64,000 nt of DNA from Brevundimonas sp. GTDB lineage: Bacteria > Pseudomonadota > Alphaproteobacteria > Caulobacterales > Caulobacteraceae. The notes below the pieces were generated by a model, which was not told the origin of the DNA, did no database searches, and was given only the letters and a program-made list of their open reading frames with translations. The translations under genes were made by a program, and so were the position numbers. The stretch spans positions 1-64,000 of the forward strand of contig NZ_JACESA010000005.1 of assembly GCF_013912065.1 (NCBI RefSeq), read 5' to 3'. Of this stretch, positions 29,532-45,075 are shown in pieces (the first letter of the stretch is position 1; every line of letters begins with the position of its first letter).

Positions 29532-30005
29532 TCAGGACGCGGGAGCCAGCGCGCCTTCCAGGCTGATGGTGGCGTCGGCGTTCTCGACGACGTTCAGGGT
29601 GGTCGCCTCGACCTTGCGGTCATGAAGGGCGGCCAGCCAGCCGAAGGCGGCGGTGCTGGACACATTGGTCAGGCTGAAACCCAGGCCGCCGTCGGCCGAC
29701 ATCCCCATGACCGGCGTCAGCCCGGTCACCCCGCCGACCTCGGCCACCACGGCCGAGACATCGACGCCGCCGGCCGCAGGATCGCCGCTGGACAGACGCC
29801 CGGTCGCCTTCTGGACCATGGCCAGATCGGCCTCGGCGACGGCGCGCGCCTCGGCCGCCTCGGCCCGCCAGCCCCAGGCCGGACGCACGATCAGCAGCCA
29901 GACCAGGACGGCGGCGATGGCCAGGGCCATGACCATCAACATGCGCCGCTCGCGCAGGGTGCGGCCCTCCCACCAGGCGGCGGCTTGAGACATCAGGCCG
30001 TTCAT
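29532..30005 (-). CDS. gspM: Type II secretion protein GspM
   Basis: GspM is a small inner-membrane platform protein that works with GspL. A short cytoplasmic N-terminus with TLRERRMLMVM precedes one membrane helix (MALAIAAVLVWLLIV), then a periplasmic ferredoxin-like domain. It is the last gene of the gsp operon and overlaps gspL by four bases (ATGA). An in-frame ATG four codons later is an alternative start. gspN is absent after it, as in many alphaproteobacteria. Confidence 0.9.
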   Translation of the reverse strand: MNGLMSQAAAWWEGRTLRERRMLMVMALAIAAVLVWLLIVRPAWGWRAEAAEARAVAEADLAMVQKATGRLSSGDPAAGGVDVSAVVAEVGGVTGLTPVMGMSADGGLGFSLTNVSSTAAFGWLAALHDRKVEATTLNVVENADATISLEGALAPAS

Positions 30006-31114
30006 GCGGCGCCTCCCACGATGACTTCGCTGACGACCCGGCCGCCATCCTCAACGGTCGAGGCGTCGGACAGGGACAGCCCGGACCCGGCCAGGGCGGT
30101 GCGGATGGTCTCCAGATCCGAGAAGGCCGGATAGCTGAGGGTCGCGCGGACCCCCTGGCCCGGGTCGGCCGTCAGACTGTCCAATTCGGCGCCCTCGACC
30201 TGTTCCACGGCGGCGAACAGGGCGGCCGAGACCGTGGCCAGACCGCCGGGCGGCGGGGCGACGGCCAGCATCCGCCGCGCCTCCTCCACCGGGTCGGCGG
30301 CGCGCGCGGCCTCGGGCAGGGCCTGTTCGATCAAGGCCAGAGTCTGGCGTTCGGCGCGGTCGGCGGCGACCTGATCGCGCGCACCCGCCGCCAGGGTCAG
30401 GATCAGGGGCGAGACCACCAGGGCCGCGGCCAGTCCCGCCGCCAATCGCCAACTCCCGGTCCGGGCCTCGCGCTTGCGCTCCAGACCGGACAGAAGATCG
30501 ACGGCCGGGGCCGAGGCGGCGGCCGCCAGCAACCGTTCCATGGTTTCGGCGTCGTCCATGCGGTGCAATGTTCGCCCGTCGGCGACGACCTCGACCAGAT
30601 CGCCCTGAACCGTGGCCGCGAAATCCACGCCGCGCAGACCCATGTCGGCGCCGAAGACGGCGGCGTTCAGCCCCTCCCCGTCCGGCGCCGGCAGCACCAG
30701 ACAGTCGGGCACGACGGCGACGGGCGTGACGCCCAGGGCGGCGAGATAGTCGATCCAGGCTTCCAGCAGGCCCGCGCTGACGGCCGCGACCAGACGCGGA
30801 GCCTCGCCCTCGGCGCCTCGAACGACGGGACCGACGGCGACCACTGTGCGGTCGGGATCGCCCGCGAGATCCTCCTTCAAGGCCCAACGGGCGGCCGCGC
30901 GAACCTGTGCTCCGCCGCCGACCGGCAAATTCAGCCAGCGCACCAGGATGTCGGCGCCCGGCGCGACGGCGACGGTGCGGACATCGGGCGTCGTGACGGG
31001 ATCTTCCATCAGCAGCGATCCACGCTGAAGCACCCGTCCTCCCGCGTCGAAGGTCACGAAGGGCGCCGGCATCGAGGCGGCCGGAGGGATGATGACGATA
31101 CGGGTCTGGCTCAT
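30002..31114 (-). CDS. gspL: Type II secretion protein GspL
   Basis: GspL links the cytosolic ATPase GspE to the membrane platform. An N-terminal actin-like cytoplasmic domain of about 240 residues is followed by a membrane helix (LAAGLAAALVVSPLILTLAAG) and a periplasmic domain similar to GspM. The 370-residue length is a little short for the family. It overlaps gspK and gspM by four bases each, indicating translational coupling. Confidence 0.92.
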   Translation of the reverse strand: MSQTRIVIIPPAASMPAPFVTFDAGGRVLQRGSLLMEDPVTTPDVRTVAVAPGADILVRWLNLPVGGGAQVRAAARWALKEDLAGDPDRTVVAVGPVVRGAEGEAPRLVAAVSAGLLEAWIDYLAALGVTPVAVVPDCLVLPAPDGEGLNAAVFGADMGLRGVDFAATVQGDLVEVVADGRTLHRMDDAETMERLLAAAASAPAVDLLSGLERKREARTGSWRLAAGLAAALVVSPLILTLAAGARDQVAADRAERQTLALIEQALPEAARAADPVEEARRMLAVAPPPGGLATVSAALFAAVEQVEGAELDSLTADPGQGVRATLSYPAFSDLETIRTALAGSGLSLSDASTVEDGGRVVSEVIVGGAA

Positions 31115-32097
31115 TCTTCGGGGGTCCAGCGGCGGATGACGGTGCGCACGCCGCCGTCCGATGCGGCGTGGAGCAAGGCGGTGCGGACGGCATGGGCGCC
31201 GCCGTAGTCGATATCGACCCGAAGATCGAAATAGCGCGTCAGCAGAGTGGTTTGTGCGCGTGTTTCATCATCGGATGTGAAGGCTTTCAACGCCGGCTGA
31301 TCCCAGAAGGCGTCGATGCTGGACCAGCCCAGAGCCGGACGCGCCGCGATGGCGGCGCGGGCCGTCTGCAGCCCGATCGCCCCATCGCTCAGCATCACCA
31401 GGAAGGGCGCCTGGGCCGGCGCCAGGGTGTTGACGTTCAAGGCCGCCTGGGCGGTCGTGGGCAGGGCGCAGACATAGGGGCGCAGCCGGCGATACAGTTC
31501 CGCGTCTATACTGGCCACCGCCCGCATCTCGCTGACGTCGGCCAGCATGACGCCGCCGGTGCGATAGGGGGTGGTCAGGCCGGCGTAGCGGGCGTCCTCG
31601 CCGCCGTTCGGCTGGCTCTCGGCGTCTTCGTCCATCCAGTCGGTCAGGGCGGCGGCGGCGGCGGTCATCCGCGTCCGGGACAGGCCCAGCGCCTGGCCGA
31701 GAGCGATGAACTGGGCCGTGCCCTCGGGACGGGCGAACAGGTCCTCGCCCTGGCCATAGACCAGGGAGTTCAGGTTGAAACAGGCCTGACCGTCCGTGAC
31801 GACGGCGCGAATGGCGCCCTCTTCCACCGGAAACTCCATCACCCGACCGTTCCAGCGCGGCTCGATCGGGGTGCGGGCGGGGTCGGCCTTCAGCAGATCG
31901 GCGATCTGGCGCCGGGCCAGGCTTTCGGCCCCAGCGGCGTACCACTGAGCCTGGGCCTGGGTTTCGCCATTGGTGGTGCGGCGAACGGAGAAGCGGACGT
32001 CGTCCAGTATGGCCACCGCCACGACCGCCATCACCGCCACCAGCAGCAGGACGGTCAACAGGGCCATGCCCTCGCGTCTTCGCCGCATCCTCCTCAT
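31111..32097 (-). CDS. gspK: Type II secretion minor pseudopilin GspK
   Basis: GspK caps the pseudopilus tip. The leader MRMRRRREG is followed by the hydrophobic helix MALLTVLLLVAVMAVVAVAI, with cleavage expected after G9; the residue after is Met, and no +5 Glu is present, which is normal for GspK. The large globular domain and the SAM-like repeats (ALNVNTLAPAQAPFLVML) follow. The ATG at 32097 overlaps the gspJ stop as ATGA; a longer open frame to 32733 is a shadow of gspJ. Confidence 0.92.
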   Translation of the reverse strand: MRRMRRRREGMALLTVLLLVAVMAVVAVAILDDVRFSVRRTTNGETQAQAQWYAAGAESLARRQIADLLKADPARTPIEPRWNGRVMEFPVEEGAIRAVVTDGQACFNLNSLVYGQGEDLFARPEGTAQFIALGQALGLSRTRMTAAAAALTDWMDEDAESQPNGGEDARYAGLTTPYRTGGVMLADVSEMRAVASIDAELYRRLRPYVCALPTTAQAALNVNTLAPAQAPFLVMLSDGAIGLQTARAAIAARPALGWSSIDAFWDQPALKAFTSDDETRAQTTLLTRYFDLRVDIDYGGAHAVRTALLHAASDGGVRTVIRRWTPEE

Positions 32098-32708
32098 GCG
32101 GATGCGACCAGGAACAGCTGATCCAGGCGGCCGACGCCGTCCAGGGTCATGACGATGCGGACGGCGTCCGGCAGGGGCCGATCGCTGGAGGCGATGAAGG
32201 CCTGGGCCTCGGACCCGTTCTGGATGAAGGTCACGGCGGCGTCCTTGACCCCGCGATAGAGAACCTGCGGCGGCCCGGCGCGGGCGCCGTCCAGATAGGG
32301 CGAGACGCGCCGCTCCAGCCGATCCTCGACCACCCGGTATTCGACCCGCTGCAGCGACGGCCGGCTCGCGCCCTCGGGATTGGACCAACCGTTGCGGACC
32401 AGGATCAGGATCGGATCGCCCGGCGTCTCCTGCCCCATCAGGGCGCGCGGCAGGGGTCGGCCCGTGGGTGCGCGTGTGCGACGCGGCGCGGCCTGGGCCA
32501 GGTCGGCCTTCAGCAGGGCGCGCATCCGTTGCAGATCGCCGATCCGGTCGGTCTCGGCGCGGACGGCGAACCGGGTGTCGATCGTCTGGCTCAGCACCAG
32601 GGCGCCGGCCCCGGCCAGGACGGCGAAGATGGCCAGGGACACCAGGACCTCGACCAGGGTGAAACCCGCCCGGCCGGCGCCCCCACCGCTGCGCCGCGAC
32701 GCCCTCAT
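32094..32708 (-). CDS. gspJ: Type II secretion minor pseudopilin GspJ
   Basis: GspJ is part of the GspIJK tip complex. The leader ends RAG at residue 15, then FTLVEVLVSLAIFAVLAGAG with Glu at +5, the prepilin peptidase signature. The 204-residue length is typical. It overlaps gspI and gspK by four bases each. Confidence 0.94.
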   Translation of the reverse strand: MRASRRSGGGAGRAGFTLVEVLVSLAIFAVLAGAGALVLSQTIDTRFAVRAETDRIGDLQRMRALLKADLAQAAPRRTRAPTGRPLPRALMGQETPGDPILILVRNGWSNPEGASRPSLQRVEYRVVEDRLERRVSPYLDGARAGPPQVLYRGVKDAAVTFIQNGSEAQAFIASSDRPLPDAVRIVMTLDGVGRLDQLFLVASA

Positions 32709-33082
32709 GCCCCGGCCGACCGGAACAGGACACGGTCCGCCACCTGGCCGTCGTCGGTCGAGACGCGCACGTCGATCCGCCCCATGCCGGGGACTTCCGT
32801 CCCTGTGACGACGCGCCGCCAGCGCCAGACGCGGCCGGCCATCTGGGTCTCGCCCGAGGTCTCGCCGACCGGCAGGCTCTGCGCGATCATGGCCTCGGCG
32901 GCGACATTCTCGGCCACCACCCCGCCCAGGGTGCGTTCCTCGAGACGCACCGCCGAACGCGTGCTCTCGCCCGACAGGTTCAGCAGGGCCATGGCCGCCA
33001 GGGCGAATACCGCCAGGGCGACCAGCATCTCGATCAGGGTGAAGCCAGCCGAGCGCGCTTTCGGACCACGACGATCAATCAT
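32705..33082 (-). CDS. gspI: Type II secretion minor pseudopilin GspI
   Basis: The leader MIDRRGPKARSAG is followed by FTLIEMLVALAVFALAAMAL with Glu at +5. The 125-residue length is typical for GspI, the nucleus of the pseudopilus tip. It overlaps the gspH end by eight bases and gspJ by four. Confidence 0.94.
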   Translation of the reverse strand: MIDRRGPKARSAGFTLIEMLVALAVFALAAMALLNLSGESTRSAVRLEERTLGGVVAENVAAEAMIAQSLPVGETSGETQMAGRVWRWRRVVTGTEVPGMGRIDVRVSTDDGQVADRVLFRSAGA

Positions 33083-33623
33083 GGATCGCCACCTCGCCCG
33101 CGCCGTCGACCACGACCGTGCGGGATGTATTGTCGCGCGTCAGACGCACCTGGGCGGGATCGGCGACGCCGGTGGGGTCGAAGACGACGCGCAAGGGCTC
33201 GCGTGGCGGAACGACGCCCTCGCCCCAGGTCCGCGCGACGAAGACGCCGTTCAAGGGGGTCCATTCCACGCCGTCGAAGCTTGAAAATCCATAGCCGGAC
33301 GCGTCCACATCCGCCGCCACCGACCGGTTCGTCAGGATCGCCTCTTCGCGCGCGCGCGACAGGCGGGCGGCGAACTGTTCCGCTTCCAGACCCACGGCCG
33401 GACGCGGGTCGGGCATGGACAGAACCACGGCCCCGGCCGCCAGCCCGATCACCGCGATGGTGACCATCAGTTCGACCAGGGTGAAGCCTGATCTTCTTTT
33501 TGCACTACCGCTCGCCGCGCGGCGGCTCGCTGTTTGAGCGCCGTTTGTCGCGCTACCGCTCGCCGCGCGGCGGCTCGCTGTTTGAGCGCAGTCAGCCCTG
33601 CCAGTTGCCGAGGTCCGCGTCAT
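33075..33623 (-). CDS. gspH: Type II secretion minor pseudopilin GspH with repeat-extended leader
   Basis: The mature part starts FTLVELMVTIAVIGLAAGAV with Glu at +5 and is a normal GspH. The unusual part is the leader. The only start codon with a plausible ribosome site is the ATG at 33623, inside the end of gspG, giving a 46-residue leader instead of the usual 6-15. The leader includes a 16-codon tandem repeat (AQTASRRAASGSA twice) encoded by an interspersed-type DNA repeat. It is basic and could still enter the membrane for cleavage. A non-standard start nearer the cleavage site is possible. Confidence 0.82.
   Translation of the reverse strand: MTRTSATGRADCAQTASRRAASGSATNGAQTASRRAASGSAKRRSGFTLVELMVTIAVIGLAAGAVVLSMPDPRPAVGLEAEQFAARLSRAREEAILTNRSVAADVDASGYGFSSFDGVEWTPLNGVFVARTWGEGVVPPREPLRVVFDPTGVADPAQVRLTRDNTSRTVVVDGAGEVAIHD
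33505..33588. repeat. Two direct copies of a 36-base GC-rich repeat with palindromic core
   Basis: Identical 36-base copies occupy 33505-33540 and 33553-33588, offset by 48 bases. Each contains the palindrome CGCCGCGCGGCG and is bounded by CGCTC and GAGCG, so each can fold. The 48-base offset keeps the gspH reading frame. The palindrome is also seen once at 59827. The form suggests a dispersed genomic repeat element that entered the start of gspH. Confidence 0.9.
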
Positions 33624-34044
33624 TGCCCTCGCCCCCTTCCTTGCCGTCCGCTCCCAGGGAGAAGACGTCGAACTGCTGACCGTGGGTGCTCTGGCGACGA
33701 TAGCGATAGGGGTTGCCCCACGGATCTTCCGGCAGGCGACGCACATAGCCGCCCTGGCGGTAGCGTTCGGGTTGGGCCAGGCCGGCGGGCGCCGAGACCA
33801 GGGCCTGCAGCCCCTGCTGGTCCGTCGGGAAGTTCAGATTATCGAGGCGATAGGTCTCGATCGCCTGTTCCAGCACCGAGATGTCCGCCTTGGCCTTGCC
33901 GACCATGGCCCGGTCCTGGCTGGGCAGGACATTGAGGGCGACCACGGTGGCCAACAGGCCGATGATGACGATGACCACCATCAGCTCGACCAGGGTGAAA
34001 CCTTGACGCTTCAGACGTTTGGCGCGGTTTTCTGCAGTAATCAT
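33592..34044 (-). CDS. gspG: Type II secretion major pseudopilin GspG
   Basis: GspG builds the pseudopilus shaft. The leader ends KRQG at residue 15, followed by FTLVELMVVIVIIGLLATVV with Glu at +5. The C-terminal part has the typical DPWGNPYRYR and DVFSLGADGKEGGEGNDADLGNW calcium-binding loop. The ATG at 34044 has AAGGGA upstream; a GTG at 34059 overlapping the gspF stop is an alternative. Confidence 0.96.
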   Translation of the reverse strand: MITAENRAKRLKRQGFTLVELMVVIVIIGLLATVVALNVLPSQDRAMVGKAKADISVLEQAIETYRLDNLNFPTDQQGLQALVSAPAGLAQPERYRQGGYVRRLPEDPWGNPYRYRRQSTHGQQFDVFSLGADGKEGGEGNDADLGNWQG

Positions 34045-34055
34045 GACACTTCCCT

Positions 34056-35264
34056 TCACCCCATCGCCAGGGTGTTGATCTGAAGAATGGGCAGCAGGAT
34101 CGACAGGACGATCATCGCCACGACCCCGCCCATCACCACAATGATGGCAGGCTCGAGCAGACTCAACATCACGGCGGTGAAGGTCGAGAACTCGCGTTCC
34201 AGATAGTCGGCGGCCCGTTCCAGCATCGGCTCCAGCCGCCCGCTGCTCTCGCCCGAGGCGGTCATATAGACCAGCAGCGGCGGGAAGACGTCGGCGCGGC
34301 GCATGGCGGCCGACAGACCCCCGCCCTCGCGCACCGCCTCGGCCATGGCCTCGGTCGCGCGCCGCAGCGCCATGTTGGACACGGTGCGGGCGGTGATGGT
34401 CAGACCCTCCAGCACCGGCAGGCCGGCGGCGATCATCGTCGATAATGTCCGGGCCATTCGGGCGCCGTGCAGATCGCGCGTCAGCCGGCCGATCACCGGC
34501 AATTTCAGCATCGCCTGGTCGATCCGCAGCCGCACCTCGGGCCGACGCCGCGCGACCACCCCGGCGACCACCAGACCGGCCAGCGCCAGCAGGATCAACC
34601 AGCCCCAGTTTCGCATCAGATCCGACACCCCGATCACCATCCGCGTCAGCAGCGGCAGGGTCTGGTTCATGCTCTCGAACTGATCGACCACCTTGGGCAC
34701 GACAAAGGTCATCAGGATCGCGATGACGCCGAAGGCCACCATGGCGAGAACGCTAGGATAGACCACGGCGGTGATCACCTTGCCGCGCACCTGCTGATCC
34801 CGCTCCAGCCCGTCGGCCAGCCGTTCCAGGATGGGCTGTAACGCGCCCGACTGTTCGCCGGCCGAGACCATGGCGCGATACAGGGGCGGAAAGGCCTGGC
34901 CCTGCAGAGACATGGCGTCGGACAGGCGACGCCCTTCCATGACGCCCGCATGGACGCCCTCCAGCACACGTCTGACGACGGGCCGGTCAGCCTGCAGCGC
35001 CAGGGTGCGCAGCGCCTCCTCGATCGGCGCGACCGAAATCAGCGTGGCCAGCTGGCGCGTGGTCAGGGCCAGGGTCTTGGAATTCAATCGACCACCCTTG
35101 GCCGTCCGTTCGCCGCGCGGCGCGATGCGCGCGGGCGTCAGTTCCAGCGGCATCAGCTTGCGACGCGTCAGCTGATCCCGCGCCTTCGCCTCGTCCGCTG
35201 CGGTCACGGCCCCGGACACGGTGCGTCCGACGGCGTCGACGGCGACATAGTCGAAGGCCGCCAT
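34056..35264 (-). CDS. gspF: Type II secretion inner membrane platform protein GspF
   Basis: GspF is the polytopic platform protein that contacts GspE. Two related GspF domains are visible, each with a YxxxxxAGExSGxL-like motif (YRAMVSAGEQSGAL and VYMTASGESSGRL), and three membrane helices. The 402-residue length is standard. It overlaps gspE by one base (ATGA type junction). Confidence 0.96.
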   Translation of the reverse strand: MAAFDYVAVDAVGRTVSGAVTAADEAKARDQLTRRKLMPLELTPARIAPRGERTAKGGRLNSKTLALTTRQLATLISVAPIEEALRTLALQADRPVVRRVLEGVHAGVMEGRRLSDAMSLQGQAFPPLYRAMVSAGEQSGALQPILERLADGLERDQQVRGKVITAVVYPSVLAMVAFGVIAILMTFVVPKVVDQFESMNQTLPLLTRMVIGVSDLMRNWGWLILLALAGLVVAGVVARRRPEVRLRIDQAMLKLPVIGRLTRDLHGARMARTLSTMIAAGLPVLEGLTITARTVSNMALRRATEAMAEAVREGGGLSAAMRRADVFPPLLVYMTASGESSGRLEPMLERAADYLEREFSTFTAVMLSLLEPAIIVVMGGVVAMIVLSILLPILQINTLAMG

Positions 35265-36760
35265 CAGGCCGCCTCAACCGAATCGGATGCGGTCTCCTGC
35301 CGAGCCACGCGCACCGCCTCCTCGACCGAGGTGACGCCTTCCAGAACCAGGGTCCGGGCGCGGTCGGTCAGGGTTCCACCGGCGCCGAAGGCGGCGGCGA
35401 CCAGGGCGTCCTCGTCCGCCTCGGCCGCGATCAGCCGGCGCACGCGGTCGTCGATCTTCAGCACCTCGTACAGACCCACCCGCCCCACATAGCCCGTATT
35501 GCCGCAATGGGCGCAGCCGTGCGGACGCCAGACCCGGATGCCCGCCTTGGCCCCGATCAGTTTGGCGGTCGGCTTGTCGGCGATCTCGGGCGTGCGGCAA
35601 TGTTCGCACAGACGGCGCACCAGCCGCTGGGCCACGATCAGCCGCAGGGTCGAGGCCAGAAGGAAGGGCTCCACCCCCATGTCGCGCAGCCGGGTCACCG
35701 CCCCCGCCGCGTCATTGGTGTGGACCGTGGACAGGACCAGGTGGCCGGTCAAGGCGGCCTGAACCGCGACCCCGGCCGTCTCGACGTCGCGGATTTCGCC
35801 CACCATCACCACGTCCGGGTCCTGGCGCAGAATGGCGCGCAGACCGGCGGCGAAGGTCATGCCGACCTTGGTGTTGACCTGGGTCTGGCCCACGCCGTCG
35901 ATGGCGTATTCGACCGGATCCTCGACGGTCAGAATATTGCGGGTCTGGTCGTTCAGCAGAGACAGGCCGGCATAGAGGCTGGTGGTCTTGCCCGAGCCGG
36001 TCGGGCCGGTGACCAGAATGATGCCGTTCGGCTCGGCCAGGGCCGCGCGGAAGGCCGCCAGGGCGTCCGGCGCCATGCCCAGCCGATCCAGCGTCAGACC
36101 GGCCTGATCCTTGTCGAGGATCCGCAGCACCACCCGCTCGCCGCCGCGCGACGGCAGGGTCGAGACCCGCACGTCCAGCGTCTTGCCGCCCAGGGCCAGG
36201 GGGATGCGCCCATCCTGCGGCACCCGCTTCTCGGCGATGTCGAGCCGGGCCATGACCTTGATCCGCGACACCAGCAGCGGGGCGATGCGCGGGTTCAGGC
36301 TCAGGGCCTCGCGCAGCACCCCGTCGATCCGCATCCGCACCAGCAGCGCGCTCTCATAGGTTTCCAGGTGGATGTCGGACGCGCCGGTCCGCACCGCCTC
36401 GGCGATGATCCCGTTGATCAGGCGGATGACCGGAGCATCGTCGGCCGTGTCCAGCAGGTCCGCCGCCGCCGGAATGTCGTCGATCAGACTGTCCAGACCG
36501 GCCGGCATGTCCAGATCGTCGCCATCGGTCGCCGCCAGATGATCCCCGGCGTAGATTTCGGACAATTGCCGGTCGAAGGCGGCCTGACCCAGCGGCTCGA
36601 CGACCAGGGGCCGACCCAGCACCCGACGCGCCTCGATCAGGGCCCTGGGGTCCGCCCCCTCGCGCAATCCCACCCGCGCCACATCGCCCGCGTCCAGCAG
36701 CAGGACGCCGTGTCGTTTGGCGAATCCATAGGGCAGGCTGGGACTGACCAGGGTGATCAT
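35264..36760 (-). CDS. gspE: Type II secretion ATPase GspE
   Basis: GspE is the cytoplasmic motor. Walker A is GPTGSGKT at 252-259, the Asp box and Walker B (DPDVVMVGEIRDVETA) follow, and a zinc module uses C385, C388, C416 and C419 (CEHC and CAHC). The N-terminal part is the N1E-like domain that binds GspL. The 498-residue length is typical. Confidence 0.97.
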   Translation of the reverse strand: MITLVSPSLPYGFAKRHGVLLLDAGDVARVGLREGADPRALIEARRVLGRPLVVEPLGQAAFDRQLSEIYAGDHLAATDGDDLDMPAGLDSLIDDIPAAADLLDTADDAPVIRLINGIIAEAVRTGASDIHLETYESALLVRMRIDGVLREALSLNPRIAPLLVSRIKVMARLDIAEKRVPQDGRIPLALGGKTLDVRVSTLPSRGGERVVLRILDKDQAGLTLDRLGMAPDALAAFRAALAEPNGIILVTGPTGSGKTTSLYAGLSLLNDQTRNILTVEDPVEYAIDGVGQTQVNTKVGMTFAAGLRAILRQDPDVVMVGEIRDVETAGVAVQAALTGHLVLSTVHTNDAAGAVTRLRDMGVEPFLLASTLRLIVAQRLVRRLCEHCRTPEIADKPTAKLIGAKAGIRVWRPHGCAHCGNTGYVGRVGLYEVLKIDDRVRRLIAAEADEDALVAAAFGAGGTLTDRARTLVLEGVTSVEEAVRVARQETASDSVEAA

Positions 36761-36764
36761 CGGA

Positions 36765-38921
36765 TCAGTTTCCGGTCGGCGGCAGGGGCGCGGTCTCGAC
36801 CGGGGCCACGGGCGCCGTGACGCCGGTCGGCGCGATCACCAGGGGTTGGCCCGTCGCCGGGGCGGCCGGCGCCTGGGTCCGCATGTAGTCGCGCACCAGG
36901 GCGTCCAGACTGGGTTCGCGATCCGGCTGCACCGCCTGCTGCTGGTCGCGCATATAGCCCCAGCGGTCGGCGGCCAGGCCCTGGGCCTCTTCGCGGGTGC
37001 GGATGATGGTGGGACGCAGGAAGACCATCAGATTGGTGCGGCCGCGCTGGCGGCTGTTCGAGCGGAACAGGGCGCCGACGCCGGGGATGTCGCCCAGGCC
37101 GGGGATCTTGTCCGTCTGGATGATGTCGTTCTGGTCCAGCAACCCCCCGGCGACCGCGATGTCGCCGTCGTCGACCACCAGGGTCGTCTGCAGCTCCCGC
37201 TTGTCCAGCACCAGGTCCGTGGCGCTGCTGGTCAGCCCGCCGTTGATGGCCGAAACCTCCTGGCGCAGCGTCAGGGTGATGGAGCCCCCGGCGTTGATCT
37301 GGGGCTTGACCGTCAGCCGCACGCCGATGTCCTTGCGGTCTGTCGTGGTGAACGGGTTGGAATTGCCGTCCAGTAGGGTCTGGCCCGTGGTGATCGGCAC
37401 CTCCTGTCCGACCAGGAAGGTGGCCTCTTCGTTGTCCAGCGTCATGATCGACGGCGTCTGGAGCAGGTTGGACCCCGCGTCGGTCTTGGCCGCATTGATG
37501 ATGAAGCCGAACAGGCCGTCGCCGACCTCGAACCCGCCGCCGCCGACAAAGCCGTTGGCGCCCACCAGGCTGTTCAAGGCCAGGTTCTGCAACTGTTCGC
37601 GCAGCGGGTCGTCCTCGTCCAGCTGCCCCGCATAGGCGCCGCCGGCGATATTCACCAGAGGCGTCGCACTGTTGGTATAATTGGTCAGGCCCACGCCGTT
37701 CTCGCCGCCGTAAAGCCACTGGACCCCCAGTTCGCGCACGGCGTTGTCGCTCAGTTCGACGACGATGGCCTCGATCAACACCTGCTGGCGGCGCACGTCC
37801 AGCCGACGGATGACATCGGCCAGGGTCCGCTGCATGTCGGCCGGGCCGGCGATGACCAGGGCGTTGGCGCCGGGGAAGCGGGCGATGGTGGCGCGCTGTC
37901 CGGTGGCGGTGACGGTGGACGACCCTATGGCGCCGCCGTCCGTGTCTCCGCCGCCCAGGCTCGAGGCGGTGCGCGACAGGCCGCTGGACGCACCGGCCGT
38001 CGAACCGGTCTGGGCGGTCCGCAAGGATTGGCTCGCGTTCGTCGAGGTCGTGACCGGCTGGCCCACCACCTGTTGCAGCACCGGCAGCAGCTGTTCGGCG
38101 TTGGCGTGTTCCAGGAAGACGACATTGACGTCCTGGTTCGCCCGCGAACGGCCGTCCAGATCGTGGATCAGCCCCCGCACGCGGGCCAGGGCCTGGCCGT
38201 CGCCGCGCAGGACGATGGAGTTGGAGCTCTCGACCGGCGTGACGGTGACCATCCCCTGCCCGCCGCCGCCCGGCGTCGCCATGACCTGTTGCAGCACACC
38301 GGCGATCTCGCGCGCCGAGGCGTTTTCCAGGGCCACGACCTCGTAGCTCGAGCGATCGACGTCGATACGGGCGATCAAGGCGCGAATACGGGCCAGATTG
38401 TCGGCGAAATCCGCGACGACCACGCTGTTGGCGCCGGGATTGGCCAGAACCTGGCCCTGGGCGCCGACCAGGGGGCGGATGGTCTCGGCGGCCGAGGCGG
38501 CCTCGATGTTGCGCAGCTGGAAGACTTCGGTCGAGAACCGTTCGACGCCGACGGTCGATGGGCCCTGGGCGGCGCCCTGGGCCGGGCTGATGCGATAGGC
38601 GCCCGACTGGGTCGGCGTCACCACCAGGCCATTGGCGCGCAGGGTCGACAGGAAGACCTCGAACAGCTGGGCGCGGCCCAGCGGCCGGTCGCTGGTCACC
38701 GTCACCGTGCCGGTCACGGCCGGATCGACGATGAAGGTGCGGCCGGTGGTCCGGGCCACGTCCTGGATGAAGGCGCGAATATCGGCGCCCTGGACGTTCA
38801 GGGTCTGGCGGGCTTCCTGGGCCAGAACCGGTGCGGCGGACAACGGCCCCTGCAGGGCCAGGACGGCGGCGAGGGCCCCGACGCCGGAACGCAGCAGGCG
38901 GTGGCGCGGAGAGGCGGTCAT
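36765..38921 (-). CDS. gspD: Type II secretion outer membrane secretin GspD
   Basis: GspD forms the outer-membrane channel. A signal peptide (to VLAQ at about residue 34) is followed by N0 (DIRAFIQDVARTTGRTFIVDP), three further N domains and the secretin core with VPITTGQ and the closing NLMVFLRPTIIR segment. A Ser/Gly-rich insert of about 50 residues (about 290-340) lies within N3. The C-terminus is a Pro-rich tail with no obvious S domain. It overlaps gspC by four bases. Confidence 0.96.
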   Translation of the reverse strand: MTASPRHRLLRSGVGALAAVLALQGPLSAAPVLAQEARQTLNVQGADIRAFIQDVARTTGRTFIVDPAVTGTVTVTSDRPLGRAQLFEVFLSTLRANGLVVTPTQSGAYRISPAQGAAQGPSTVGVERFSTEVFQLRNIEAASAAETIRPLVGAQGQVLANPGANSVVVADFADNLARIRALIARIDVDRSSYEVVALENASAREIAGVLQQVMATPGGGGQGMVTVTPVESSNSIVLRGDGQALARVRGLIHDLDGRSRANQDVNVVFLEHANAEQLLPVLQQVVGQPVTTSTNASQSLRTAQTGSTAGASSGLSRTASSLGGGDTDGGAIGSSTVTATGQRATIARFPGANALVIAGPADMQRTLADVIRRLDVRRQQVLIEAIVVELSDNAVRELGVQWLYGGENGVGLTNYTNSATPLVNIAGGAYAGQLDEDDPLREQLQNLALNSLVGANGFVGGGGFEVGDGLFGFIINAAKTDAGSNLLQTPSIMTLDNEEATFLVGQEVPITTGQTLLDGNSNPFTTTDRKDIGVRLTVKPQINAGGSITLTLRQEVSAINGGLTSSATDLVLDKRELQTTLVVDDGDIAVAGGLLDQNDIIQTDKIPGLGDIPGVGALFRSNSRQRGRTNLMVFLRPTIIRTREEAQGLAADRWGYMRDQQQAVQPDREPSLDALVRDYMRTQAPAAPATGQPLVIAPTGVTAPVAPVETAPLPPTGN

Positions 38922-39760
38922 GGGCGCGTCCTTATCGTGGTGGTGCGCGTCTCGCCCGCGCGTTCATACTGGATTTCGGCGGACGGGGCGCTGGCCAGCT
39001 GGCCGCGCAGGGCGCCGATCGCTTGCGGGCTGTTCAGCGCCACGCCGTTGACCGACAGAATGACGTCGCCGGCCTGCAGACCGGCGCTGCGCAGCTCCGA
39101 CGCATTGCCCGCCGAGGAGACGGTGAAACCGTTGACGCCCAGGCCCTGGAGGCGCGGACGCAGCGAGGCCTGGGCCATCAGTCTTTGCGGATCGACTACG
39201 GCGCCCTGGCCCGTGGCGGTGGTCGGCGACGGGGTGACGACCTGGGGCGTCGAAGGCGGCGGCGGGGGCGCTGCGGCGCCGGCCGGCGCGTCCGCGAACT
39301 CCAGACGGCTCAGCGACTGGTCTCGGGCCAGGGTGACGAAGTCGGGTCCGACGCTCTGCAGGATCAGGCCGGGCTCGACCTCCTCGCCGACGCCGACCGA
39401 GATCTGGCGTCCGTCCGGCAGGCCTATGATGGCGGACCCGCCGCCCACGCCGCCCGCGCGGACGCCGAACAAACGCATCTGACTGGCTTCCGCGCCGGAG
39501 GCTCCGGCCAGGGCGCCGGGCGCGCCCGTACGGAAGAAGGCGTCGAAACGCGATAGAATGCTCAGGTCCACAGGGCCTGTCGGCGTCGCGACGGCGACCG
39601 CCTCAGTCTGGGGCCGAGGCCCGGCGAACAGCCAGACCAGCCGACCCGCCTGCACCAGCAGCAACAGAACCAGGACCCCTTCGAGGATCCGGCGCAGAGG
39701 GAGGCGTCGTATCGCCTGGGCCGAAGCCGGCAGGCTGAAATTGCGGAATGCAGCGATCAC
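38918..39760 (-). CDS. gspC: Type II secretion protein GspC
   Basis: GspC bridges the platform to the secretin. One membrane helix (ILEGVLVLLLLVQAGRLVWLF) is followed by the HR domain (MRLFGVRAGGVGGGSAIIGLPDG) and a C-terminal PDZ domain (GNASELRSAGLQAGDVILSVNGVAL). A Pro-rich linker separates them. The start is uncertain: GTG at 39760 gives a normal short cytoplasmic tail, while the frame is open to 39865. It is the first gene of the gsp operon. Confidence 0.9.
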   Translation of the reverse strand: MIAAFRNFSLPASAQAIRRLPLRRILEGVLVLLLLVQAGRLVWLFAGPRPQTEAVAVATPTGPVDLSILSRFDAFFRTGAPGALAGASGAEASQMRLFGVRAGGVGGGSAIIGLPDGRQISVGVGEEVEPGLILQSVGPDFVTLARDQSLSRLEFADAPAGAAAPPPPPSTPQVVTPSPTTATGQGAVVDPQRLMAQASLRPRLQGLGVNGFTVSSAGNASELRSAGLQAGDVILSVNGVALNSPQAIGALRGQLASAPSAEIQYERAGETRTTTIRTRP

Positions 39761-39893
39761 GACGCCATGCCCGTCCCGGCCCCGACGGCCATTGCGCGAT
39801 CTAGACGAACCGTCCGTATGCGGGCCGCACGGATGTGTGAAGACATGAAGAACATGTTGTGACACTTGCGCGCTATGCGGATCATTTATCTAG

Positions 39894-39930
39894 AACGAAA
39901 ACGACCGGGAGGCCAAGGGCCGCCCGGTCG
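39894..39930 (-). terminator. Intrinsic terminator after the TonB-dependent receptor gene
   Basis: CGACCGGG (39902-39909) pairs with CCCGGTCG (39923-39930), with a nested GGCC pair in the loop. On the minus strand the stem is followed by TTTTCGTT. It begins 25 bases after the receptor stop, so it should separate receptor transcription from the gsp operon downstream. Confidence 0.75.
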
Positions 39931-39954
39931 CGAAGTCGTCGCCTGTTTCTGAAA

Positions 39955-42597
39955 TCAGAAGCGGGCGGTCAGGCTGATCGAGGCGCTCTGACCCAGGTCA
40001 TAGTTGTTGACGCGGATCTTGTTGCCCAGTTCCTGATACTCGTCGAAGTCGGTGCCGAGCAGGTTCCGCAGTTCCAGGGCCATGCCCATGTCGCGGTTCA
40101 TGACGGTGAAGTCCTTCCGATAGACGAAGTCGAGGAAGACACCCGGTTCCTGGATGAAATCGGGTTCGCGGCTGGAGCCGTTGCCGGCCCCGCGCGCCGT
40201 GATGCGGTCGCTCACATAGTTGACGATGATCGTCGCTTGCGACCGGGCCGTGTCGTCTTCCCAGCCCAGTTGCAGGTTGGCGACATGCTCGGACTGGCCT
40301 TGCAGACGGCTGCCGTCCTGGATGAAGAAGGACGCCTGTTCCGGCGTACCGGCGCCGCCCAGCGTCAGGACGGTGTCGTCATCGCCGACTTCGACCTCGG
40401 AGTCCGAGTAGGTGTAGTTGGCCTGCACCAGCCAACGCTTGTTGGAGATGAAGGACATGCTCTGGTCGGGGAACTCGAAATACTTCTTCACCTCGACCTC
40501 GGCGCCCATGATGGTGGCCTTGGGCGCGTTCAGGAAGGATTGCTGACGCTGGTTGCCGACATCGACGATGACGGCTTCCACCGGCTTGTCCAGGTCCTTG
40601 TAGAAGACGCCGGCGGTGATGAACTGCTGGCGAGCGAAGTACCATTCGTACCGCGCGTCGAGGTTCAGCAGTTCGGTGTCGACCAGATAGGGGTTGCCGA
40701 TGAAGATGCGGTCGCTTTCCGGATCCGTATAGGCCTGAGGGGCCAGTTCACGGAACTGGGGACGACCGATTGTCTTGGATGCGCCGAACCGCAGTTGCTG
40801 ATCCTCGGCGAAGTTCCAGGTCGCCGTGAACGACGGCAGCCAGTACTGTTCGTCGATCTCGGTCGCCTCGTAAGGTGCGGCGCCGCCGAACAGGTCGCGC
40901 GGCGTGACGCTCTGTTGACCGTCTTCGAAACGAACGCCGACCGTGGTGCGAACCAGCGGGATGATTTCCGCATCGACCATGGCGTATGCGGCGTTGACCT
41001 GAAGCTCGGCGTCATAGGCGTTGGCGCCGTTGGTGCCGGCGATCTCGCGCAACTGAAGCGTCGTCGGATTGATGTTGTAATCCGAGAACAGATAGTCGAT
41101 GCGCGAATGACGCTGGCTGTCCGTCAGGCCGTTGACGGCCTCGAACTGCAGGTCGTGGCGCGAAGCATCGCGGTTGTTGTCGAACGAAGCCACGCCGGCG
41201 CTGATGATGGCTTCCCGGGCCGACGAGAGCGGCAGGGTGTAGGCCACGTCCAGGCCGCCGGAGACGATGTCGTCGTCCAGTTCGCTGAACGAGATCAGAT
41301 TGCCCTGGACGTTGTGGATATATTCGCCGTCCGCATCCACGCCATACTGGAAGCGCGATTCATACGGCGCGTCACGCGAGGTCTTGGCATAGGCGGCTCG
41401 CCAGTCGATTTCGAGCGCACCGTCCATGAACTGATGTTCGCCGGCCAGCTGGCTGCTGAACAGTTGGCGCACGTACCATTCGGTGTAGTCGTTGCGGATC
41501 ACGCTGCCGCCGGCGTCGAAGTCAGGCCCCGCGACCGTCCGGGCCCGCTTGGTGGTGTTGCGGACGTAGAAGTTGGTCCACTTGACCTCATGGTCGGCGT
41601 TCGACAGCGACAGACCGCCGAGGAAGTTCAGGCGGATGTCGTTCTGGTTCGATTCCACGTCGTAGGTGGAGACGGGCACCAGGACGTCGCCCTGGAACTG
41701 ACCTTCTTCCTGGACGCCGCGACGGGCGCGCCAGCTGTTGTCATAGCCCGCGACCGCGACCAGGCCCAGGGTGCCGAACCCCGTGTCCTGCGAGAAGCCG
41801 CCGGCCAGTTCCAGACCACCGTCGATCGGGGTCTTTTCACTCTGCAGCAGGCGCAACGGCGCATTGACCAGAGACTGACCCATGGTCTGGAGTTGGTCCG
41901 CAGTGAAGTTGGCGCTGTTGATCTGCTTGCCTTGGTCAAAGGCGATGCGGACTGCGCCCGGAACTTCGCGCGTGTCGTCGTCGAAACCGGTGAAGTCGGT
42001 GCGCGATCCGTAATAGATCAGGCTTTCCTTGCCGGTCGACTCGGTGTTGCCGCCCAGCGAAAGCTTCATGTTGAAGAAGGGCTGGTTCGGAGCGTCGATC
42101 GTGTGCAGATCGATCACGCCGCCGCCGAATTCGCCGGGGAAATCGGCCGAATAGGTCTTCTGAACCGTCACGCCTTCCAGGATGCTGGAGGGGAAGAGGT
42201 CCAGGGGAACGACGCGCTGCAGCGGCTCGGGGCTGGGCAGGGGCGAGCCGTTCAGAAGGGCCGAGGAATAGCGCTCGCCCAAGCCGCGAACATAGATGAA
42301 CCGTCCTTCGACGATCGACAGGCCGGTGACGCGGGTCAGGGCGGCGGCGGCGTTGCTGTCGCCGGTGCGCTCCAGATCCTCGGAGGTCAGGAAGGCCGCG
42401 ACCTCGGAGCTCTCGCGGTTGGGTTCGGGAATATAGCGGCCCAAGACGACGATTTCGCCGACGTCCGCAGGCTGTTCCTCGACCTGTTCGGCCGGGGTTT
42501 GCGCCGTCGGCGCGGTCTGGGCGAACGCCAGGTTCGGCGCAATCAGCGCGCTGCTGGCGAGAAGGACCCCGCTCAGGGTCAGAGTAAGTCTATTCAT
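39955..42597 (-). CDS. TonB-dependent receptor of the T2SS-linked type
   Basis: This 880-residue outer-membrane receptor has a signal peptide (to about residue 26), a plug with RGLGERYSSALLNGSPLPSPEP and FGGGVIDLHT, and a barrel ending in an aromatic residue (SLTARF). The plug differs clearly from the receptor at 19613. The gene lies directly downstream of a beta-helix lipoprotein gene and upstream of the gsp operon, all on one strand. I infer a surface receptor that works with that lipoprotein; the ligand is unknown. Confidence 0.92.
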   Translation of the reverse strand: MNRLTLTLSGVLLASSALIAPNLAFAQTAPTAQTPAEQVEEQPADVGEIVVLGRYIPEPNRESSEVAAFLTSEDLERTGDSNAAAALTRVTGLSIVEGRFIYVRGLGERYSSALLNGSPLPSPEPLQRVVPLDLFPSSILEGVTVQKTYSADFPGEFGGGVIDLHTIDAPNQPFFNMKLSLGGNTESTGKESLIYYGSRTDFTGFDDDTREVPGAVRIAFDQGKQINSANFTADQLQTMGQSLVNAPLRLLQSEKTPIDGGLELAGGFSQDTGFGTLGLVAVAGYDNSWRARRGVQEEGQFQGDVLVPVSTYDVESNQNDIRLNFLGGLSLSNADHEVKWTNFYVRNTTKRARTVAGPDFDAGGSVIRNDYTEWYVRQLFSSQLAGEHQFMDGALEIDWRAAYAKTSRDAPYESRFQYGVDADGEYIHNVQGNLISFSELDDDIVSGGLDVAYTLPLSSAREAIISAGVASFDNNRDASRHDLQFEAVNGLTDSQRHSRIDYLFSDYNINPTTLQLREIAGTNGANAYDAELQVNAAYAMVDAEIIPLVRTTVGVRFEDGQQSVTPRDLFGGAAPYEATEIDEQYWLPSFTATWNFAEDQQLRFGASKTIGRPQFRELAPQAYTDPESDRIFIGNPYLVDTELLNLDARYEWYFARQQFITAGVFYKDLDKPVEAVIVDVGNQRQQSFLNAPKATIMGAEVEVKKYFEFPDQSMSFISNKRWLVQANYTYSDSEVEVGDDDTVLTLGGAGTPEQASFFIQDGSRLQGQSEHVANLQLGWEDDTARSQATIIVNYVSDRITARGAGNGSSREPDFIQEPGVFLDFVYRKDFTVMNRDMGMALELRNLLGTDFDEYQELGNKIRVNNYDLGQSASISLTARF

Positions 42598-42633
42598 GGT
42601 CTGCGCCTTGAAGGGGTCAGGAAACGCGAAGAA

Positions 42634-42661
42634 CCGGCGGCGACCTCATGGTCGCCGCCGG
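42634..42661 (-). terminator. Strong hairpin between lipoprotein and receptor genes (attenuator or mRNA stabiliser)
   Basis: CCGGCGGCGACC (42634-42645) and GGTCGCCGCCGG (42650-42661) form a perfect 12-base stem with a four-base loop, starting 12 bases after the lipoprotein stop. No run of T follows on the minus strand (TTCTTCGCG), so it may be a partial terminator or a 3' stabilising stem that raises lipoprotein output over receptor output. Confidence 0.6.
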
Positions 42662-42672
42662 CGCAGTCATCG

Positions 42673-44199
42673 TCAGCAGGTGGAGCCGGCGGTCAGGCCG
42701 CAGGTCCAGCCCTGCCACCAGGTGTCGGACGCATTCTGGACGGCGCCGATGTAGGTGGTGTTGGTGAAGAACGAATAGACCGAGTTCGCGTTGACCGGGG
42801 TCACGGCGTTTTCGTTCGCGCCGTTGATGAAGGCCAGGTTCTGGTTGGTGATCGTCGTGCCCGTGGCCGGAGCGGTCAGGGTCGAGGTTCCCGCCGCCGT
42901 GACATTGGTGTTGCGGGCATTGGTGAACACCGCCGTCGAGCGAGCGACGTTGGCAGGACGGTAGGAGATCGCGCAGGACATGAAGATCGAACGCAGCGAC
43001 GGCGTCGAACCGCTGTCGAAGCTCGTCTGCGTGTCGGCGTCGGCGATGTCGAAGCAGCCGGCGAGCGAACCCGCTGTCGCGGTGGCGACGATGTTGATCA
43101 GGTTCGGGTTGGTGCCGGTGTCGAAGTGCATGACCGTGTGGGCGTCGGTCGGCGAGTTACGGCCGACCAGGGTCCAGTTGGCGATCTTCGGCTGCGACAG
43201 GTAGCGCGTGGCATAGGGGGTCCCGGCCGGAGCGGACGAGAACTCGAAGCCGGCCGAACGGCTGGTGGCGTTCGGAGCGCGCTGGGTCACGATGCCGAAC
43301 TGGGCGCCGCCGCGCCAGCCGGTGTCGGTGTCCAGGCCGTCGTCGTCGGCGCCGTTGATGACGATGTACTTCAGGTTGGCGTTGCCGCCGAAGATTTCGA
43401 TGCCGTCGTCCGAGCTGTTGTACGACTGGATATATTCCAGGGTCGTGCCCGAGCCGACGCCGGCCAGGGTCAGGGCCTGAAGCTCGTTGCCGGTCGAGAT
43501 TTCAAAGCCTGAGTATTTGATCTGGACATAGCGGATGCGGCCGGAGTTGTCGGTCGCCGTATTGCCGCCGAAGAAGGCGTTGGTGCCTTCGACCTGGCCG
43601 GTGCAGGTGACCGGGGCGGTCAGCTGGCAGTTGGCCTGGGGCGCGCGGCCCGCGAGGACGATCCCGCCCCACTGACCTTGCGAGTTCAGCGTGGTCGTGC
43701 CTTCGACGTCCTGACGGCTGGTGAAGATGATCGGGTTGGTCGCCGTGCCTTCGGCGTAGATTTGCGAGCCACGGTTAACCAGCAGATAGTCGCCGCCGCT
43801 CGAGGCGAAGATCTTGACGCCCGGCTCGACGGTCAGGATGCCCTGCGTCCCGGTCGTCGAGGCCGGATCGATGCCGCGGTCGGTGCCGACTTCGGTACGG
43901 CCGCTGATCGAGTAGATGGTGCCGGCGCGAACGGCCAGGGTCAGGTTGCCCAGAACCTGTTGCGGCAGCTGGCAGACGCGCAGGGTGTTGTTGGCGATGG
44001 TGCCTACGTTCGACAGACCCGTCGGGCAATCCGTGGCGGGGGTGCCGGGCGTGGGCGTGGTGGGCGTGGTCGGCGTCGTCGGCGTGGTGCCGCCGAAATC
44101 GCCCTCGCCGGGAGAAGCCACCTCGGCGGAGCCGCAGGCGGCGAGCGCGAGGGCGCTGGCCGCCGTCACGAGAAGGGTCTTGATCTGAAGGCCGGTCAT
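42673..44199 (-). CDS. Predicted surface lipoprotein with right-handed beta-helix
   Basis: A lipoprotein signal with lipobox cysteine C22 (LALAAC) is followed by a Thr/Pro linker (TTPTTPTTPT) and a long repetitive domain with short turns such as GTTLEYIQSYNSSDDGIEIFGGNANLKY, typical of parallel beta-helices. Cysteine pairs occur near both ends, including the C-terminal STC. The ATG at 44199 has GGTGGA upstream; ATG at 44202 is equally possible. Placement next to the receptor and gsp genes makes it a candidate T2SS substrate exposed on the surface. No catalytic motif is recognised. Confidence 0.85.
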   Translation of the reverse strand: MTGLQIKTLLVTAASALALAACGSAEVASPGEGDFGGTTPTTPTTPTTPTPGTPATDCPTGLSNVGTIANNTLRVCQLPQQVLGNLTLAVRAGTIYSISGRTEVGTDRGIDPASTTGTQGILTVEPGVKIFASSGGDYLLVNRGSQIYAEGTATNPIIFTSRQDVEGTTTLNSQGQWGGIVLAGRAPQANCQLTAPVTCTGQVEGTNAFFGGNTATDNSGRIRYVQIKYSGFEISTGNELQALTLAGVGSGTTLEYIQSYNSSDDGIEIFGGNANLKYIVINGADDDGLDTDTGWRGGAQFGIVTQRAPNATSRSAGFEFSSAPAGTPYATRYLSQPKIANWTLVGRNSPTDAHTVMHFDTGTNPNLINIVATATAGSLAGCFDIADADTQTSFDSGSTPSLRSIFMSCAISYRPANVARSTAVFTNARNTNVTAAGTSTLTAPATGTTITNQNLAFINGANENAVTPVNANSVYSFFTNTTYIGAVQNASDTWWQGWTCGLTAGSTC

Positions 44200-44355
44200 C
44201 ATCAGTCCACCATGTCTGGTCAAAGAGCTACGACAGGGGACGCCCGAGCCCATGCCCGGCCGCTAAGACGTGATCGTCCCTCCTGCCCGGCTGCATTCAT
44301 TAGGGAAGCCGTGTGACGGTGCATGCGCCTGGACATGAAGGTTAGGCGGAGCTTT

Positions 44356-44388
44356 TACGTAGCTAACGTTTCCGTTGCGCAACGTTTC
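44356..44388 (-). promoter_or_regulatory. Promoter and operator candidate upstream of the lipoprotein gene
   Basis: On the minus strand TTGCGCA and GCTACGTA are separated by 12 bases, close to the Caulobacter housekeeping pattern TTGACGS-N(10-14)-GCTANAWC. The -35 lies in the perfect palindrome CGTTGCGCAACG (44373-44384), and AACGTTTC occurs twice (44365 and 44381), 16 bases apart. This fits a regulated promoter about 150 bases before the lipoprotein start. Confidence 0.42.
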
Positions 44389-44418
44389 GTCTGTCATCTG
44401 ACTATCTCGACATCCGCC

Positions 44419-45075
44419 CTAGTGGACGCCTTCCCGTGTCAGGACGGCTGGAACTGTCCGCGCCAGCAGAACCAGATAGGTCCGGACGGTCAGGTTTCGC
44501 ACCAGCCAGACGTCCATGGCGACGCGGCGCGGATAGGGGATGTCGTTCCGTCCCGACACCTGCCAGAGCCCGGTCAGCCCCGGCCGAACGGCGCGATATG
44601 CGGCGAAATGACGGCCGTAGAGCGCGATCTCGTCCTCGACGATCGGGCGCGGCCCGACCAGCGACATGTCGCCCTTCAGGACATTTATGAGCTGCGGCAG
44701 TTCATCGAGACTGGAGAGGCGAAGGAAACGTCCGAGACGGGTCACGCGCGGATCCTGACGCAGCTTGCGCCGCTCGATCCACTCTTGATCGATCAGTTCC
44801 GGCAATCGGGCCTGGGCGTCGACGGTCATGGATCTGAATTTCAGACAGGCGAACGGTCGCCCGCCCCTCCCGACCCTTTCATGGCGAAACAGAGACGGCC
44901 CACCGTCCTGAAGCTTCACCGCCACGGCGATCATGAGAAGGGTTGGAAAGAAGAAGATCAGGCCGCCGAGCGCGACGACCACGTCCATAAACCGAATAAG
45001 CCCGCCCGTGATCGACGCCGCCTGAGCCTGCCCGTCACTGCCCGTGCGATGCAGCACAGCCGCCACAGTCGTCAT
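44419..45075 (-). CDS. Undecaprenyl-phosphate sugar phosphotransferase (bacterial sugar transferase)
   Basis: This is a monotopic phosphoglycosyl transferase that starts polysaccharide synthesis by moving a sugar phosphate to undecaprenyl phosphate. The re-entrant helix region is [25 protein letters not shown], and the catalytic core shows [30 protein letters not shown] and [13 protein letters not shown]. At 218 residues it is the minimal form without the CoA-binding-like extension. Holdfast or exopolysaccharide synthesis (HfsE/PssY type) is likely in this group of bacteria, but no other glycan genes are near. Confidence 0.92.

Follow-up and report, generated by a model that had tools for sequence, protein, structure and literature searches.

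A conserved ElpS-type lipoprotein-receptor pair in Brevundimonas and its relatives, with type II or type IV secretion genes as variable neighbours

What brings a lipoprotein gene, a TonB-dependent receptor (TBDR) gene and the genes of a type II secretion system (T2SS) together on one strand of a Brevundimonas-like genome? They lie in a stretch of 64,000 nucleotides from Brevundimonas sp. (NCBI RefSeq assembly GCF_013912065.1, contig NZ_JACESA010000005.1, positions 1 to 64,000 of the forward strand), referred to below as the window. Compared with related loci, the lipoprotein and its receptor are the constant unit, while the secretion machine is a variable neighbour. The locus is probably an ElpS-type phosphate-starvation module, with a fixed lipoprotein-receptor core and an exchangeable exporter of periplasmic enzymes. 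A narrower proposal, that a minimal type IV secretion system (T4SS) lacking VirD4, and often VirB8, was swapped for the T2SS more than once as the phosphate-starvation exporter of Sec- or Tat-delivered enzymes, is offered as a tentative possibility.

All positions are window coordinates, and the reading order runs along the minus strand from 44202 down to 29532:

42673-44202, minus strand: elpS-like surface lipoprotein, 509 aa from the ATG at 44202 (44199 is also possible), with lipobox LAAC and a Thr/Pro linker
42633-42662, minus strand: 13-bp hairpin with a 4-nt loop, between the elpS stop and the receptor gene (z -4.19)
39955-42597, minus strand: TonB-dependent receptor, 880 aa, plug and barrel (Pfam); best NCBIfam match TIGR01782, under its cut-off
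38918-39865, minus strand: gspC (Pfam T2SSC, PDZ)
36765-38921, minus strand: gspD, secretin with N0 domain (Pfam)
35264-36760, minus strand: gspE, ATPase (Pfam)
34056-35264, minus strand: gspF (Pfam)
33592-34059, minus strand: gspG, major pseudopilin (Pfam)
33075-33623, minus strand: gspH (Pfam), true start uncertain, prepilin motif near 33500
32705-33082, minus strand: gspI (Pfam)
32094-32708, minus strand: gspJ (Pfam)
31111-32097, minus strand: gspK (Pfam), 328 aa from the ATG at 32097; the listed 540-aa open reading frame (ORF) runs into gspJ
30002-31114, minus strand: gspL (Pfam)
29532-30005, minus strand: gspM (Pfam), end of the cluster

The order is that of an ElpS-type locus: lipoprotein, TBDR and gspC onward on the same strand. 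Pfam assigned one family each to the consecutive minus-strand ORFs of 29532-39865 (T2SSC, secretin, T2SSE, T2SSF, T2SSG, GspH, T2SSI, T2SSJ, T2SSK, T2SSL and T2SSM), giving eleven genes, the GspC-M set of a T2SS including secretin, ATPase and pseudopilins. Junctions, in nucleotides and with gspK counted from ATG 32097, are C/D -4, D/E +4, E/F -1, F/G -4, H/I -8, I/J -4, J/K -4, K/L -4 and L/M -4. Closely ahead of the gspH prepilin motif there is no ATG, GTG or TTG. Gaps of 75 nt and 89 nt separate lipoprotein from receptor and receptor from gspC, and a scan for sigma-70-type promoters over 39700-44700 found none. A sequence-only reading of the same DNA had described eleven mostly overlapping gsp genes with a receptor and a Thr/Pro-linker lipoprotein upstream on the same strand, and this description is borne out; its word "fused" is right as to the adjacency of these genes and to nothing beyond that. 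It had also noted correctly that gspN and gspO are missing locally. Downstream of gspM lies a convergent gene of the SMP-30/gluconolactonase family and no gspN, and a genome-wide search for gspN (PF01203) at E 0.001 gave no match, the control search being positive in Caulobacter. GspN is part of the Caulobacter cluster but is missing from many other T2SSs. A gspO is encoded in trans, as a 250-aa prepilin peptidase with two CxxC pairs on contig C34 of the window's genome; a second match, on contig C7, resembles by eye the CpaA pilus peptidase.

This arrangement is already published as the Caulobacter crescentus locus type, in which elpS (CC0170), CC0171 and gspC-N stand in the same order (Le Blastier and colleagues, 2010; PMC2996285). 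The two loci share a lipobox lipoprotein, a TonB receptor and gspC onward in order, and differ in that gspN belongs to the Caulobacter cluster, whereas the window's genome has no gspN match and carries gspO on another contig. The same paper reports comparable layouts in Xanthomonas campestris, Sphingomonas alaskensis and Hyphomonas neptunium. In the Xanthomonas xcs cluster, which resembles the Caulobacter T2SS, a TBDR gene and two hypothetical genes precede xcsC (PMC2585010, 2008); like the window it thus has receptor and hypothetical protein genes beside a Caulobacter-like T2SS, but its hosts are gammaproteobacterial, plant-associated strains, and the available text of that paper states no function for the upstream genes. 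Relatives of the lipoprotein were also recovered in Phenylobacterium and Asticcacaulis. A literature search on the names CC0170 and CC0171 returned the 2010 paper alone.

Caulobacter ElpS is a palmitoylated outer membrane protein detected under low phosphate only (PMC2996285). Proteinase K degrades it equally in the wild type and in a gspC-N deletion, and the T2SS and proteases are needed for its release only, not for its surface exposure (PMC2996285). The sequence-only reading had presented this as a type II system secreting a lipoprotein to the surface, which misstates the paper. Overexpression of elpS raised phosphatase activity in the supernatant and was toxic without the T2SS (PMC2996285). 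Production of the Caulobacter T2SS was reported as constitutive, yet two gsp genes were up 1.7-fold in poor medium (PMC2996285), and a 2024 paper places this T2SS among the members of the PhoB regulon (PMC11208175).

How constant is the arrangement? A scan of species genomes gave at least 524 lipoprotein candidates, of which the best 80 were compared together with flanks of up to 10 kb; they are nearest relatives, mostly Caulobacterales, Sphingomonadales and Xanthomonadales (loci and genomes are given L and G numbers where they must be told apart). In 78 of the 80 loci the lipoprotein is followed by the receptor on its own strand; the two exceptions, L019 and L043, lie on contigs that end 21 and 223 bases past the lipoprotein match. 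A T2SS adjoins the pair in 32 loci, so that the linkage of lipoprotein, receptor and gsp genes does recur across genomes, and a VirB-type T4SS adjoins it in 17; no locus has both. The T2SS lies downstream on the same strand in 28 cases, upstream on the same strand in three (L032, L036, L037) and divergently in one (L053), the T4SS downstream on the same strand in four (L062, L067, L069, L072) and divergently upstream in 13. Neither machine occurs within the available flanks of the remaining 31 loci, 12 of which have at least 9 kb on both sides. The T4SS-linked and machine-free loci speak against the notion of a unit "built on a secretion machine". VirB4 is at the locus in 16 of the 17 T4SS cases; L071 has VirB11 at the locus and a partial VirB4 on other contigs. 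VirB11 matches within T2SS loci coincide with GspE, a member of the same ATPase family, and were left out of the counts, as was a VirB1-like (transglycosylase) match standing alone upstream of the pair in L073.

Bacteroidota have a surface lipoprotein paired with a TonB-dependent receptor in SusC/SusD. The constant pairing of the two genes is a SusC/SusD-like feature, and a partnership of lipoprotein and receptor is plausible. The pairing here is one of genes, and unlike its Bacteroidota counterpart the lipoprotein matches no Pfam family and therefore lies outside the SusD family.

Some further genes recur around the pair. Seven T2SS-linked loci (L012, L013, L032, L037, L059, L063, L083) have a gspO-like gene no more than about 4 kb from it. 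A lone GspE-like ATPase gene, with no gspC or gspD match nearby, stands 3-4 kb after elpS and just beyond the receptor in L033, L052, L055, L058 and L088. In 16 loci, of which 10 are T4SS-linked, a gene for a small TPR protein adjoins the receptor or elpS (e.g. L076:9347-9874, minus strand).

The T4SS beside the pair has the gene order virB1-B2-B3-B4-B6-(B8)-B9-B10-B11. Pfam recognised VirB1 (SLT), VirB2, VirB3, VirB4 (CagE), VirB6 (TrbL), VirB8, VirB9 (CagX), VirB10 (TrbI) and VirB11, each on at least one locus; VirB4, VirB6, VirB9, VirB10 and VirB11 were identified by Pfam on proteins of L062, L074, L092 and L099 and by tblastn across the 80 loci. No VirD4 (PF02534) was found on the contigs with the close VirB4 (defined below) in the 17 T4SS-linked genomes, nor anywhere in seven of them, several genomes being drafts and the close VirB4 of L071 and L084 being split over short contigs. 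VirB8 (PF04335) has no match genome-wide in nine of the 17 and is on the T4SS contig in L067 and L072 only; it is present in three T4SS clusters that are not beside ElpS (L096-L098). Neither a relaxase nor VirB5 was seen by eye in the T4SS ORF lists, no dedicated search having been made. In G356, a single-contig genome, the cluster is chromosomal. DUF1800 and DUF1501 genes adjoin VirB11 as a pair at L093:6903-10191 (Pfam) and L098:1226-4518 (by similarity); judged by eye, the DUF1501 protein resembles a Tat substrate, and it may be cargo.

Other T4SSs without VirD4 are known, namely Ptl of Bordetella, VirB of Brucella, ComB of Helicobacter and Trw of Bartonella; a periplasmic step is used by Ptl and by part of the Brucella effectors, and ComB serves DNA uptake (PMC12857230, a 2025 review). 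As far as the available text of that review describes them, they share with the present T4SS a VirB channel without the VirD4 coupling protein, and differ from it in its environmental hosts, its phosphate neighbourhood, its frequent lack of VirB8 and the adjacent lipoprotein-receptor pair. The review contains neither "phosphate" nor "Sphingomonad". Among the papers listed by literature searches on T4SSs in Sphingomonadales, Novosphingobium and Erythrobacter, no report of this cluster or of its role appeared, and the available part of a Qipengyuania paper notes T2SS and T4SS merely as overrepresented (PMC9241875).

The either-or pattern of the neighbours is also seen at the level of genomes. 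GspK (PF21687) is absent genome-wide from 30 of the 80 ElpS-positive genomes. A close VirB4, meaning at least 50% identity to that of L062, was tested for in 50 of the 80 and is present in 21 of the 30 GspK-negative genomes versus 1 of the 15 GspK-strong ones, five genomes with weak GspK (L062 among them) being left out of this table; whichever way four of these are counted (L041 being outside the tree), the Fisher p stays near 1e-4, for genomes that are related. In Asticcacaulis (L025, L035) a T4SS is present but unlinked, and GspK is absent. On a tree of ElpS, made by a quick method from the window and 79 of the 80 loci, the label of the neighbour switches twice between T2SS and T4SS, with loci of neither machine excluded from the count. 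One switch is the L067/L072 clade, nested in T2SS loci; the other is a Sphingomonadales/Erythrobacteraceae clade that also holds L062, from a Caulobacteraceae metagenome-assembled genome. Two members of this second T4SS clade (L044, L070) have no T4SS beside the pair, and in both GspK is present.

A sample independent of ElpS, 387 genomes evenly drawn from the host's class, includes 12 with ElpS: seven with the cognate T2SS type, four with the T4SS and one with neither. GspK matches occur in 49 genomes and fall into two tiers, seven at 97-116 bits and the others at 78 bits or less, the line having been set after the scores were seen. All seven upper-tier genomes have ElpS, at a spacing of 10-11 kb from GspK in five and on separate contigs in G233 and G052. 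VirB4 at E 1e-100 was found in 21 genomes, four at 72-73% identity, three at 54-64% and 14 at no more than 46%, a group to which the window's own genome (40%) belongs. The four genomes at 72-73% (a stricter line than the 50% of the 80-genome census) all have ElpS, with VirB4 2.1-2.3 kb away. One T4SS genome, G419, also has a lower-tier GspK match of 51.8 bits.

What the T4SS-linked loci have around them is a phosphate context. In L062 a single strand carries phnC-phnD-phnE-like genes, elpS, the receptor and virB1 to virB11 without virB8, and its continuation L089 adds on the same strand a gene of the PstS family, under the NCBIfam cut-off. After VirB11, L099 and (by similarity) L092 carry Ppk and Ppx, and pstSCAB is present in L035. 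Nine of the 80 loci, and L089, contain a metallophosphoesterase and GT4 pair resembling plcP-agt, which are lipid-remodelling genes of phosphorus stress (PMC4796936). Counted at fixed thresholds, phosphate genes (Pst, PhnD, Ppk, Ppx, PlcP-like) occur in 20 of the 80 loci versus none of 40 control stretches, each 20 kb long, for which ten of these genomes, all T4SS-bearing, served as the source (Fisher 1.6e-4), the queries having been drawn from these loci, which favours them somewhat. A PhoB-like regulator near ten loci (L044, L071, L074, L076-L079, L082, L085, L086) was not counted, as the one copy scanned scored 147 against a 296-bit NCBIfam cut-off. Upstream of elpS in 76 loci, direct repeats like a Pho box (maximum score 14) reach a mean best score of 9.96 on the gene strand versus 8.46 (sd 0.09) in 60 shuffles; the opposite strand gives 8.67, and the means are 10.29 for T4SS-linked and 9.59 for T2SS-linked loci.

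Together these patterns suggest that in phosphate scavenging the T2SS and the T4SS, though unrelated, may do the same job. In the module that we favour, ElpS at the cell surface would probably bind or present a phosphorus-containing ligand or hold an enzyme, while the receptor would use TonB energy to import the resulting product. ElpS would reach the surface by a route independent of the T2SS, as it does in Caulobacter. The T2SS would export folded periplasmic enzymes, presumably phosphatases and a protease that frees ElpS, and in some lineages a VirB-type T4SS without VirD4 would take its place. Such an exporter would be exchangeable because no more would be asked of it than to carry outward the periplasmic enzymes that Sec or Tat deliver.

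Several observations weigh against this module. In Caulobacter, deletion of elpS left phosphatase activity unchanged, and ElpS did not act as a phosphatase on its own; expression of CC0171 was alike in rich and poor medium, and ElpS was still produced after deletion of CC0171 (PMC2996285); moreover, the orthology of the window's lipoprotein to CC0170 rests on gene order and description. Phosphate genes are found in 11 of the 17 T4SS loci but in 2 of the 32 T2SS loci (7 of the 31 others). In the window's own promoter no Pho box is convincing: the best score is 11 of 14, on the wrong strand, and 60 of 869 control regions equal or exceed it. Scores of 8-11 are found in nine near relatives, mostly Brevundimonas. 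At the thresholds used, neither machine is present in 9 of the 30 GspK-negative ElpS-positive genomes or in the ElpS-positive class-sample genome G010, and L063 carries both (GspK and a close VirB4).

The rival explanations divide over what the machines do for the pair. According to the sequence-only reading, ElpS is a T2SS substrate, placed on the surface by that system and handing a ligand to the receptor, with the secretion machine as the base of a Sus-like unit. Although the tight gsp linkage in 32 of the 80 loci fits, as does the toxicity of overexpressed ElpS in Caulobacter lacking the T2SS, we judge this very improbable: Caulobacter ElpS stays surface-exposed when gspC-N is deleted (PMC2996285), and the pair occurs with a T4SS or, in the 12 loci with long flanks, with neither machine. 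The T4SS might alternatively take up DNA as a phosphorus source, in the manner of ComB, or form an adhesive pilus like Trw, the two machines then sharing a regulon for different ends. ComB and Bartonella Trw are indeed VirD4-less T4SSs with such roles (PMC12857230), and the T4SS loci are flanked by phosphate genes. This is nevertheless unlikely, as the cluster retains VirB11, which ComB lacks by the review's account, and 21 of the 22 ElpS-positive genomes with a close VirB4 are without GspK (weak-GspK rows dropped), a pattern that replacement fits better than an added function.

A last rival turns on kinship: T2SS and T4SS would be independent neighbours of a generic receptor locus, and the either-or pattern would reflect shared ancestry in a few clades. 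The label changes only twice on the ElpS tree, and with kinship removed the pattern is not significant (eight tree-based independent pairs, median p 0.125). All three class-sample genomes with VirB4 at 54-64% are ElpS-negative, and the T4SS can therefore exist without ElpS. On the other side, the linkage persists in several orientations and across families, all 11 class-sample genomes with GspK of at least 97 bits or VirB4 of at least 72% have ElpS, and in the pairs test opposite changes of T4SS and T2SS average 3.8 pairs and parallel ones 0.1. Shared ancestry alone appears a quite unlikely explanation, and the phosphate-starvation module with an exchangeable exporter is kept as the probable one.

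Within the core itself, the lipoprotein has the lipobox LAAC followed by GSAEVASPGEGDFGG and the Thr/Pro linker; the mature protein starts with CGSAEVASPGEGDFGG and this linker. The raw-ORF start at 44253 was rejected, as it would add residues ahead of the signal peptide. The gene is single-copy in the window's genome at E 0.01; its copies in the nearest Brevundimonas relatives show 73-90% identity, the nearest among the matches listed being Brevundimonas intermedia at 90%. A profile search against solved structures gave a chance match alone for the lipoprotein (E 0.24) and no relative for the receptor at E 0.001. With no match in Pfam either, the beta-helix that the sequence-only reading ascribed to the lipoprotein is a conjecture. 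A doubled form, with a pair of ElpS units encoded in a single frame of about 965-969 codons, occurs in L004 and L006 (G129), and likewise in G421 and G441.

The fold of the hairpin between the two genes was equalled by none of 200 shuffles. A stem of at least 9 is found in 57 of 77 homologous elpS-receptor gaps (the first 200 nt of each at most), with varying sequence, and the mean stem is 11.0 versus 6.3 in single-base shuffles. The hairpin is probably a 3' stabiliser or partial terminator, which would yield more lipoprotein than receptor.

In 20 of the 80 loci a gene for a prolyl-hydroxylase-like 2OG-Fe(II) oxygenase (Pfam 2OG-FeII_Oxy_3) lies within about 3.2 kb of elpS (e.g. L029:8833-9852, minus strand). 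The 60 residues after the lipobox contain on average 14.2 prolines in these 20 loci versus 8.1 in the other 59 scored, a few of which are truncated or mis-anchored (p 2e-6, with no correction for kinship), and the oxygenase possibly hydroxylates the ElpS linker. On the upstream flank of the window's cluster are a sugar transferase gene and, at 45906-46874 on the same strand as elpS, a distantly LapA-like M28 peptidase gene. The peptidase was set aside as an ElpS-releasing protease: it carries its own lipobox, and its family consists of aminopeptidases.

The window's locus adds one example to an arrangement already in the literature, whose secretion system emerges from the comparison as an accessory and not a scaffold. 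The relatives with a linked T4SS form a new variant, where this machine appears to take the place of a T2SS. If this holds, phosphate scavenging in some Sphingomonadales and Erythrobacteraceae would depend on a T4SS, and the roles of VirD4-less T4SSs would extend past toxin, effector, pilus and DNA-uptake machines. Non-homologous secretion machines would then have been exchanged within one nutritional module, with a Ptl-like T4SS at work in free-living bacteria that have no host or recipient cell. The locus type also offers a genetic system for how surface lipoproteins cross the outer membrane without a T2SS.

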